From the NCBI GenBank assembly GCA_024707225.1, contig JANQAE010000004.1, forward strand, positions 496,001 through 560,000: DNA of 64,000 nucleotides, given 5' to 3'. The notes under the pieces were generated by a model. That model did no database searches. It saw only the letters and a list, made by a program, of their open reading frames with translations, and was not told the DNA's origin. This DNA comes from Dokdonella sp. Its GTDB lineage: Bacteria > Pseudomonadota > Gammaproteobacteria > Xanthomonadales > Rhodanobacteraceae. The first letter of the stretch is position 1. Each line of letters opens with the position of its first letter. The translations under genes were made by a program, and so were the position numbers. Of this stretch, positions 9,112-13,239 are shown piece by piece.

Positions 9112-9127
9112 GCACAAAATAATCGGT
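9112..9127 (+). promoter_or_regulatory. Putative upstream NrdR box (degenerate)
   Basis: gcacaaaataatcggt, about 11/16 match to consensus acaCwAtATaTwGtgt; exactly 32 bp upstream of a better box. Confidence 0.5.
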
Positions 9128-9155
9128 TGACACACCCAGGCGACCACAATAGCTT
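9127..9155 (+). promoter_or_regulatory. Putative sigma70 promoter for nrdAB
   Basis: Perfect -35 TTGACA (9127-9132), 17-nt spacer, weak -10 TAGCTT (9150-9155). Confidence 0.5.
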
Positions 9156-9159
9156 GTGG
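9144..9159 (+). promoter_or_regulatory. Putative NrdR box overlapping the -10
   Basis: CCACAATAGCTTGTGG within the perfect 8-nt-arm palindrome GACCACAA-tagc-TTGTGGTC (9142-9161). Confidence 0.65.
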
Positions 9160-9244
9160 TCGTCGGTGCCCGCTGGGCATGGCAGGGTGTCGGGGAACGC
9201 GCGTATGGCGTGCCTCGATCGGAGCGCGCGGCGCGGCCGCGCAG

Positions 9245-9440
9245 GCCGCGCGCAGGCGGTTCTCGACGCCCTTCCAGGTCCCGCCGGCTTAATAGGGAAT
9301 CCGGTGCCAAGCCGGAGCTGCCCCGCAGCGGTAGGTGGAAACGAAATCCGCGTTCTGCACTGGTCCGGTCGGACTGGGAAGCGGCGGAGACTAGGCGAGC
9401 CGCAAGGCTCCGGTCCACGAGCCCGAAGACCTGCCGACAC
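9245..9440 (+). ncRNA. Cobalamin (B12) riboswitch upstream of nrdA
   Basis: gggaatccggtgccaagccggagctgccccgcagcggtaggtgg ... actgggaagcggcg ... gagcccgaagacctgcc: conserved core elements in the correct order. Confidence 0.92.
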
Positions 9441-9653
9441 GTCGGGTCGCCGTCGACGTCGTCGCGTCCGCTGAGACGCCGTTCGCCGATCGTCGACGTC
9501 CCGACGCGGGTGACCACCTCCGCGGGGAGGCTGCGTCACGAGACGGCGCGCCCGACGGCGCGGCGTCGTCGTCGACGCCGTTCCTCCCCGGTGGTCGAAC
9601 CGACCGTGCCTGCGCGACGGAGCAGGTCGTCCGACAGATGACGGAGGAATTCC

Positions 9654-12141
9654 ATGCAGCCCCTCGATATGCGCGCCGCGTCCGCGGATGCCGATCCCTT
9701 TTCCGCGACGGCCCCCGCGCCGAAGACCGGCGGCAGCCGGCAGGATTTCGCACTGACGCCGCCGCACAGCCCCGCGCAGATGCGCGTGACCAAGCGCAAC
9801 GGCTCGACCGAAGCGGTCGACGTCAACAAGATCGTGCGCGCGGTGACGCGCACTGCCGAAGGCCTGCACGCGGTCGATCCGATGCGCGTGGCGCTCAAGA
9901 CGATCGGCGGCCTCTACGACGGCGCCAGCACGCGCGAGCTCGACGAACTGTCGATCCGCACCGCCGCCGCGTTGACCGCCGAGGAACCCGAGTACGGATT
10001 TCTCGCCGGCCGCCTGCTCGCCGGCTACATCGACAAGGAGGTCGCCGGCCAGGAGATCCAGTCGTTCTCGCAGTCGGTCGCGCGCGGCGCCGAGGTCGGC
10101 ATCATCGACGCGGCCCTGCGCGACTTCGTCGCGCTGAACGCGCGCAAGCTCAACGACGCGATCGACCCGGCCGCGACGCGCCGCTTCGAGTACTTCGGCC
10201 TGCGCACCGTCTACGACCGCTACCTGCTGCGCCATCCGCAGCTGCGCAAGGTGCTCGAGACGCCGCAGTACTTCTTCATGCGCATCGCCTGCGCGCTCGG
10301 CGGCGGCGACATCGGCGAGACGCTGGAGCTGTACCGGCTGATGTCCTCGCTCGAGTACATTCCAAGCTCGCCGACGCTGTTCAATGCCGGCACCGCGCAC
10401 CAGCAGCTGTCCTCGTGCTTCCTGCTCGACTCGCCGGACGATTCGCTCGAGGGCATCTACGGCAAGTACGCCGACGTCGCCAAGCTCAGCAAGTTCGCCG
10501 GCGGCATCGGCCTGTCGTACTCGCGCGTGCGCTCGCGCGGCTCGCTGATCCGCGGCACCAACGGCCATTCCAACGGGCTGGTGCCGTGGCTCAAGACGCT
10601 CGACGCCTCGGTGGCCGCGGTCAATCAGGGCGGCAAGCGCAAGGGCGCGGCCTGCGTGTACCTCGAAACCTGGCACGCCGACATCGAGGAGTTCCTCGAG
10701 CTGCGCGACAACACCGGCGACGAGGCGCGCCGCACGCACAATCTCAATCTCGCCAACTGGGTGCCCGACGAGTTCATGCGCCGCGTCGAGCGCGACGCGG
10801 ACTGGTCGCTGTTCGATCCGAAGATCGTCCCGCACTTCGTCGACAGCTGGGGCGAGGCGTTCGACCAGGCCTACCGCCAGGCCGAGGCCGACGGCCTGGC
10901 CGTCAAGACGATCAAGGCGCGCGAGCTCTACGCGCGCATGCTGCGCACGCTGGCGCAGACCGGCAACGGCTGGATGACGTTCAAGGACCGCAGCAACGCG
11001 ACCTGCAACCAGACCGCGCTGACGCAGAACGTGGTCCATCTGTCGAACCTGTGCACCGAGATCCTCGAGGTCACCTCCGGCGGCGAGACCGCGTGTGCAA
11101 CCTCGGCTCGATCAACCTGGCGCGGCACGTCGCCGACGGCGGCTTCGACTTCGACAAGCTCGCCGCGACCGTGCGCACCGCGGTGCGCCAGCTCGACCGC
11201 GTCATCGACATCAACTTCTACCCGATCGAGACCGCGCCACGGCCAACCGCAAGTGGCGACCGGTCGGCCTCGGCGTGATGGGCCTGCAGGACGTGTTCTT
11301 CCAGCTGCGCCTGCCGTTCGACTCGCCCGAGGCGCTCGCGCTGTCGTCGCGGATCGCCGAGGAGATCTACTACAACGCGCTGGCCAGCTCCTCGGAACTG
11401 GCCGCCGAACTCGGCCGCCATCCGGGCTTCGACGAGACCCGCGCGGCGCGCGGCGAGCTGCAGTTCGACTACTGGCCGCAGGCGCGGCCGACGATCCCGG
11501 CCGAGCGCTGGAACGATCTGCGCGAGCGGATCGGCACGCAGGGCCTGCGCAACTCGCTGCTGATCGCGATCGCGCCGACCGCGACGATCGCCTCGATCGC
11601 CGGCTGCTACGAGTGCATCGAGCCGCAGGTCTCGAACCTGTTCAAGCGCGAGACGCTGTCGGGCGACTTCCTCGTCGTCAACCGCTATCTGGTCGAGGAG
11701 CTCAAGTCGCTGGGCCTGTGGACCGACGCGATCCGCGACGCGATCAAGCTCGCCGAAGGCTCGATCCAGGGCATCGCGGCGATTCCCGAGCCGCTGCGGC
11801 AGATCTACCGCACGGTCTGGGAGCTGCCGCAGAAGGCCTTGATCGATCTGGCCGCCGCGCGCGGCGCCTACATCGACCAGAGTCAGTCGCTGAACCTGTT
11901 CCAGGAGAACCCGAACATCGGCCGCCTGTCGTCGATGTACATGTATGCGTGGAAGGCCGGCGTGAAGACCACCTACTACCTGCGCTCGCGCCCGGCGACG
12001 CGGATCGCCAAGACCACGGTCGGCGCCACGGCGGCCGAGCCGGTCGCGGCGCCGTTGCAGCCGGCCGCCGATCCGGCAGCGGCGACGCAGGCGGTGTTCT
12101 GCTCGCTCGAGAACCCCGAGTACTGCGAGGCCTGCCAGTAA
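9654..12141 (+). CDS. nrdA: Ribonucleoside-diphosphate reductase, class I alpha subunit (two frameshifts, near 11092 and 11238)
   Basis: [69 protein letters not shown]-terminal [13 protein letters not shown]; three consecutive reading frames together give the full protein. Confidence 0.93.
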
Positions 12142-12207: not shown

Positions 12208-13239
12208 ATGTCCGCCCAGCCACCGCTACCCAAAACCCATCACCTGCTCGACCCCGGCTTCGAACTGACGCTGCGGCCGATGCGCTATCCCGAGTTCTAC
12301 GAGATGTACCGCGCGGCGATCCGCAACACCTGGACCGTCGAGGAGGTCGACTTCTCGATCGACGTGACCGATCTGCGCTCGCGCATGTCGGCCGCCGACC
12401 GCCATCTGATCCACCGCCTCGTCGCGTTCTTCGCGACCGGCGATTCGATCGTCTCCAACAACCTGGTCCTCAATCTCTACAAGCACCTCAACTCGCCCGA
12501 GGCGCGCATGTACCTGTCGCGGCAGCTCTACGAGGAAGCGCTGCACGTGCAGTTCTACCTGACCCTGCTCGACACCTACATGCCCGATCCGGACGCGCGC
12601 GTGCAGGCGTTCGCGGCGGTCGAGAACATCCCGTCGATCCGCAAGAAGGCCGAGTTCTGCTTCAAGTGGATCGACTCGATCCAGCACCTGGACCGCATCG
12701 AGACGCGCGAGCAGCGCCGCGAGTTCCTGCTCAACCAGATCTGCTTCGCGGCCTGCATCGAGGGCCTGTTCTTCTTCGCGGCGTTCGCCTACGTGTACTT
12801 CTTCCGCTCGCGCGGCCTGCTGCCGGGCCTGGCCTCGGGCACCAACTGGGTGTTCCGCGACGAGAGCTGCCACATGGCGTTCGCGTTCGAGGCGATCCGC
12901 ACCGTGCGCGCCGAGGAGCCGGAGCTGTTCGACGCGCAGATGCAGAGCCAGGTCTACGAGATGCTGGCCGAGGCGATCGACTGCGAGACGCAGTTCGCCG
13001 AGGACGTGCTGGCCGGCGGCGTCGCCGGCATCTCCACGCGCGACATGCGCCAGTACCTGGAATATTGCGCCGATCAGCACTTCGTGAAGCTCGGCATGGC
13101 CAAGCGCTACGGCGTCAAGAACCCGCTGCCGTTCATGGAGCTGCAGGACGTGCAGGAACTGACCAATTTCTTCGAGCGCCGCGTATCGGCCTACCAGGTC
13201 GGCGTACAGGGCGAGGTCGCATTCGACGAGGCGTTCTGA
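12208..13239 (+). CDS. nrdB: Ribonucleotide-diphosphate reductase beta subunit
   Basis: Ferritin-like R2 fold motifs EEALHVQFY, FRDESCHMAFAFE, downstream of nrdA. Confidence 0.95.
   Translation: MSAQPPLPKTHHLLDPGFELTLRPMRYPEFYEMYRAAIRNTWTVEEVDFSIDVTDLRSRMSAADRHLIHRLVAFFATGDSIVSNNLVLNLYKHLNSPEARMYLSRQLYEEALHVQFYLTLLDTYMPDPDARVQAFAAVENIPSIRKKAEFCFKWIDSIQHLDRIETREQRREFLLNQICFAACIEGLFFFAAFAYVYFFRSRGLLPGLASGTNWVFRDESCHMAFAFEAIRTVRAEEPELFDAQMQSQVYEMLAEAIDCETQFAEDVLAGGVAGISTRDMRQYLEYCADQHFVKLGMAKRYGVKNPLPFMELQDVQELTNFFERRVSAYQVGVQGEVAFDEAF

Follow-up and report, generated by a model that had tools for sequence, protein, structure and literature searches.

The nrdAB operon of Dokdonella sp. (GCA_024707225.1) is very likely subject to double control, in which NrdR would act on transcription initiation, a B12 riboswitch would act on the message and the class II enzyme NrdJ would take over. 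It is located in a stretch of 64,000 nucleotides from contig JANQAE010000004.1 (positions 496,001 to 560,000), which is designated the window in the following. The original prediction of a B12-driven switch from class I to class II RNR with additional NrdR control is supported by our analysis, and homology and precedent suggest that NrdR binds here and that B12 lowers the expression of nrdAB.

All components of the operon reside on the plus strand. Downstream of the riboswitch, where a class I RNR had been anticipated, the class Ia gene nrdA for the alpha subunit (9654..12141; start codon ATG at 9654, Shine-Dalgarno sequence GGAGGAA at 9643..9649) is followed by nrdB for the beta subunit (12208..13239). 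The two genes are adjacent, and in NCBIfam their products match best to the alpha and beta subunit families of RNR. Neither the nrdA nor the nrdB pieces reach the curated cut-offs for whole proteins, in the case of NrdA because the gene is split over three frames in the assembly, with breaks near 11092 and 11234 that correspond to two one-base gaps in comparison with the intact equivalent of the nearest relative (G006). Taken literally, the breaks would make nrdA of this strain a pseudogene, and the operon would be decaying, with the riboswitch and the NrdR boxes left as relics. This scenario is very unlikely, because nrdJ is broken likewise by two one-base gaps relative to G006 within a single GC run, which would leave neither of the RNRs found in the genome intact, and because gaps of a single base in GC-rich stretches are a typical error of long-read assembly. 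Furthermore, nrdB has an uninterrupted frame, and NrdA shares 96% identity with its counterpart in the relative over the first 421 aligned residues. Given that both RNRs would otherwise be dead and that the gaps fall into GC-rich runs, the frame breaks of nrdA and nrdJ probably represent sequencing or assembly errors.

The control region starts with a two-box NrdR operator, and both predicted boxes were recovered at the expected positions. Box 2 (CCACAATAGCTTGTGG, 9144..9159) forms the core of the perfect palindrome GACCACAATAGCTTGTGGTC (9142-9161), and the degenerate box 1 (GCACAAAATAATCGGT, 9112..9127) lies exactly 32 bp upstream from centre to centre, leaving a 16-bp spacer. NrdR operators were defined as two 16-bp boxes with a spacer of 14-17 bp at an RNR promoter, and the site agrees with this definition in its spacer, its score and its conservation, with the 32-bp distance being found in nearly all relatives. 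A two-box weight matrix that was established from 75 distinct sites upstream of the relatives' nrdA genes, excluding the window and G006, assigns 36.7 bits to positions 9112-9159 and 26.0 bits to the site in reverse reading, compared with -0.07 bits for the best other of about 128,000 placements on both strands of the 64-kb window. The motif scan hence places the box pair far above the background.

Among the most strongly conserved positions of the operator alignment are TTGAC, where box 1 ends, and TATSTT within box 2, separated by 17 bp. Their equivalents in the window are the -35 hexamer TTGACA (9127..9132) and the presumed -10 hexamer TAGCTT (9150..9155). The TTGACA that had been predicted between the boxes is indeed present, but it does not stand clear of them, as its first base is also the last one of box 1. 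A generic promoter scan of the leader reported no promoter, since the weakness of the -10 element caused the pair to be missed, and the promoter was called from conservation instead. The two-box NrdR footprint accordingly appears to bracket one putative sigma70-like promoter. The inclusion of both hexamers among the best conserved columns would also be expected if NrdR were inactive here and the boxes had been kept only through their overlap with the promoter. This alternative is hardly credible, because the CACA and TGTG arms outside the hexamers are conserved at the constant distance of 32 bp, even where the riboswitch has been lost, and because NrdR-like boxes also precede nrdJ. The pair upstream of nrdJ consists of one strong and one weak box in the genome investigated, and strong boxes are present in relatives. 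The nrdR gene itself, whose presence had been left to be looked up, is located at C2:269142-269582 and scores 200 bits, above the family cut-off. In the preferred reading of an active NrdR, a high level of dATP relative to ATP would promote the binding of an NrdR oligomer to both boxes and thereby exclude RNA polymerase.

The second layer is a complete cobalamin riboswitch aptamer (9259..9451), close to the span of about 9245-9440 originally proposed. The covariance search returned a significant match to RF00174 (92 bits, E 1.6e-21) that covers the whole model from position 1 to 189 and exceeds the gathering score of 31.5 bits. The nrdA leader, which comprises about 490 nt from the putative start site, contains this aptamer, predicted to be of the Cbl-I type, and a putative expression platform. 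In comparison with G006 it carries approximately 93 bp of extra 5' sequence (9163..9255), and the distance from box to aptamer is 152 bp in the window versus 59 bp in this relative. A comparison of the extra segment with the rest of the genome yielded short partial matches only and no identification.

The aptamer loop L5 (CCCCGC, 9321-9326) is complementary to GCGGGG (9522-9527) in the P13/L13 hairpin CCTCC-GCGG-GGAGG (9517..9530), and both loops are conserved in the relatives, in which L13 reads GCGGGG or GGGGGG and matches the conserved CCCC of L5. Its distance from the aptamer core amounts to about 80 nt in the window and to 35-90 nt in most relatives, as measured to the hairpin. A second conserved hairpin, CCTGC-GCGACGGA-GCAGG (9609..9626), follows in the leader and is found about 80-90 nt beyond the L13 hairpin in most relatives; in some of them its loop is nearly identical to the L13 motif (CCGAGGGG). 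Both stems covary in sequence sets that are small, were collected by hand in a motif search and are biased towards the hairpins found: the P13/L13 stem is paired in 95.8% of the cells versus 87.6% in shuffles, with 20 cells showing two-sided changes versus 8.5 in shuffles, and the second stem exhibits 14 two-sided changes in 15 distinct sequences. The second hairpin might serve as another kissing partner of L5 or as an alternative partner of the 5' strand of L13, which would amount to a two-hairpin expression platform; we regard this idea as speculative and rather doubtful, and we know of no description of such a platform for B12 riboswitches. The energy folding of the leader downstream of the aptamer alone revealed no excess stability (z -0.37). 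G006 lacks the anti-Shine-Dalgarno candidate TTCCTCC (9581-9587), which was therefore dismissed as a general mechanism.

The composition of the leader suggests the following course of events. Binding of adenosylcobalamin would allow L5 to kiss L13, lock P13 and turn nrdAB off, with the response to the ligand and its sign being deduced from related riboswitches. The off state could consist of premature termination, possibly Rho-dependent, or of a translation block; both are retained since the terminator scan of the leader detected neither an intrinsic nor a U-tract terminator. B12 imported by a BtuB-like receptor would then enable NrdJ to take over dNTP synthesis.

The genome provides the predicted counterparts of this scheme. 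The class II gene nrdJ is present, though frame-broken, at C4:281307-283209, where its C-terminal part scores 454 bits, and no RF00174 match was detected near it. A look-up of btuB and cob genes had also been proposed. The gene for a BtuB-like TonB-dependent receptor, whose translation was inspected by eye, is preceded by a B12 riboswitch of its own, the second in this genome. The gene cbiC was not found in the genome. Judged by this single marker, a weak indicator, the cell probably takes up B12 from outside instead of synthesizing it. The window also harbors the Xanthomonadaceae sRNA sX13 (RF02232, 57 bits) at position 624-735 on the minus strand.

The conservation of the arrangement was investigated in 61 genomes, i.e., the window's own and those of 60 relatives, 36 of which possess an nrdA of this type (at least 65% identity). 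According to a comparison by hand, RF00174 is located directly upstream of nrdA and on the same strand in 34 of these 36 genomes. G015 and G057 have kept the NrdR pair (at -282/-250 and -323/-291, counted from the aligned portion of NrdA) and have lost the aptamer together with L13 and the second hairpin. The two-box operator, spaced by 31-33 bp, also occurs in those named public genomes that carry nrdA, namely in Dyella, Rhodanobacter, Luteibacter, Pseudoxanthomonas, Stenotrophomonas, Lysobacter and others, so that the spacing of the pair is conserved over Lysobacterales. The riboswitch is found in most genera with the two-box operator and is absent from most of the listed Stenotrophomonas. 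The persistence of the NrdR operator in genomes without riboswitch indicates that both layers are separable modules.

Several observations in the relatives are worth recording. Eleven aptamer-less nrdA leaders of the Stenotrophomonas type (L134, L135, L136, L140, L189, L198, L205, L208, L210, L212 and L215) contain an L13-like hairpin (TCTCCGGGGGGAGA or close), which is probably a riboswitch remnant. Two divergent cobalamin riboswitches are located back to back upstream of nrdA in G021 (G021:C1:333028-333721). In-frame insertions of about 1 kb, probably inteins, split the matches of nrdA in G016 and of nrdJ in G002, G020, G024, G027, G032, G059 and G233. Finally, the genomes G003, G004, G008, G011, G032, G033, G035 and G036 from the same family harbor nrdJ without an nrdA match of this type and apparently rely on class II RNR.

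The distribution of riboswitch and nrdJ bears on the proposed switch between both enzymes. Among 49 species from the genus that includes G057, their occurrence agrees in 46 cases (12 with both, 34 with neither), and the riboswitch adjoins nrdA in 12 of the 14 species with nrdJ versus one of the 35 without it. On the nrdA tree of this genus, nrdJ changes four times and the riboswitch only once. The correlation largely reflects one shared riboswitch event and consequently does not represent independent support; a Fisher test of the association (p ~1e-8) was set aside for the same reason. Moreover, nrdJ was not found in the riboswitch carriers G005, G009 and G230, and it is present without the riboswitch in G015, G262 and G233. 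The reading as a switch to class II RNR is therefore not universal, given the few relatives (G005, G009 and G230) in which a riboswitch is present but nrdJ is not detectable. These exceptions and the single riboswitch change would be compatible with a general B12 sensor on nrdAB that is not linked to a change of the RNR class and whose association with nrdJ reflects shared history. We consider such a sensor decidedly unlikely, because most riboswitch-bearing relatives possess nrdJ, the large riboswitch-less clade in the genus of G057 mostly lacks nrdJ as well, and it would be hard to see why B12 should repress a sole RNR. Two of the exceptions, G005 and G009 from the window's own genus, are fragmented assemblies. 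The class I to class II switch thus remains the preferred reading, and layered control of nrdAB by NrdR and B12 would represent a standing arrangement in Rhodanobacteraceae and their relatives, comprising dozens of species. The genomes with riboswitch, with a platform remnant only and with NrdR only constitute a natural series for testing the cost and benefit of the switch.

Like the genome investigated here, that of Streptomyces coelicolor, a member of a distant phylum, is known to harbor both a class II nrdJ and NrdR. The control of a class I RNR by a B12 riboswitch has been described for its nrdABS operon, which resembles ours in the riboswitch upstream of a class Ia RNR (Borovok 2006, as cited in PMC5962746). 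Spacers of 15-16 bp are the usual form in NrdR operators (PMC12051234), and the operator in the window shares with those sites the two 16-bp boxes, the 16-bp spacer and the overlap with the RNA polymerase site, but differs in its degenerate box 1. In cobalamin riboswitches the L5-L13 kissing loop carries the regulation by corrinoids (PMC10653944). The riboswitch of the window has an equivalent aptamer, a CCCG-type L5 and a complementary L13 loop; unlike in those riboswitches, L13 is separated from the aptamer core by about 80 nt and is followed by a second conserved hairpin. The closest parallel is nrdAB of Cutibacterium (Propionibacterium) acnes, whose nrd-box and cobalamin riboswitch have been described as multiple regulation layers (PMC3848588). 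There as well an nrd-box lies over the nrdAB promoter, a cobalamin riboswitch in the 5' UTR and nrdJ elsewhere in the genome, and its authors propose the same two layers as we do here. The differences are the single nrd-box of C. acnes versus the box pair in the window, and the apparent premature termination documented by RNA-seq in C. acnes (PMC3848588) versus a predicted off state in the window. The combination of NrdR and B12 control and its mechanism are thus already known, and the operon described here is a well conserved example in Lysobacterales.
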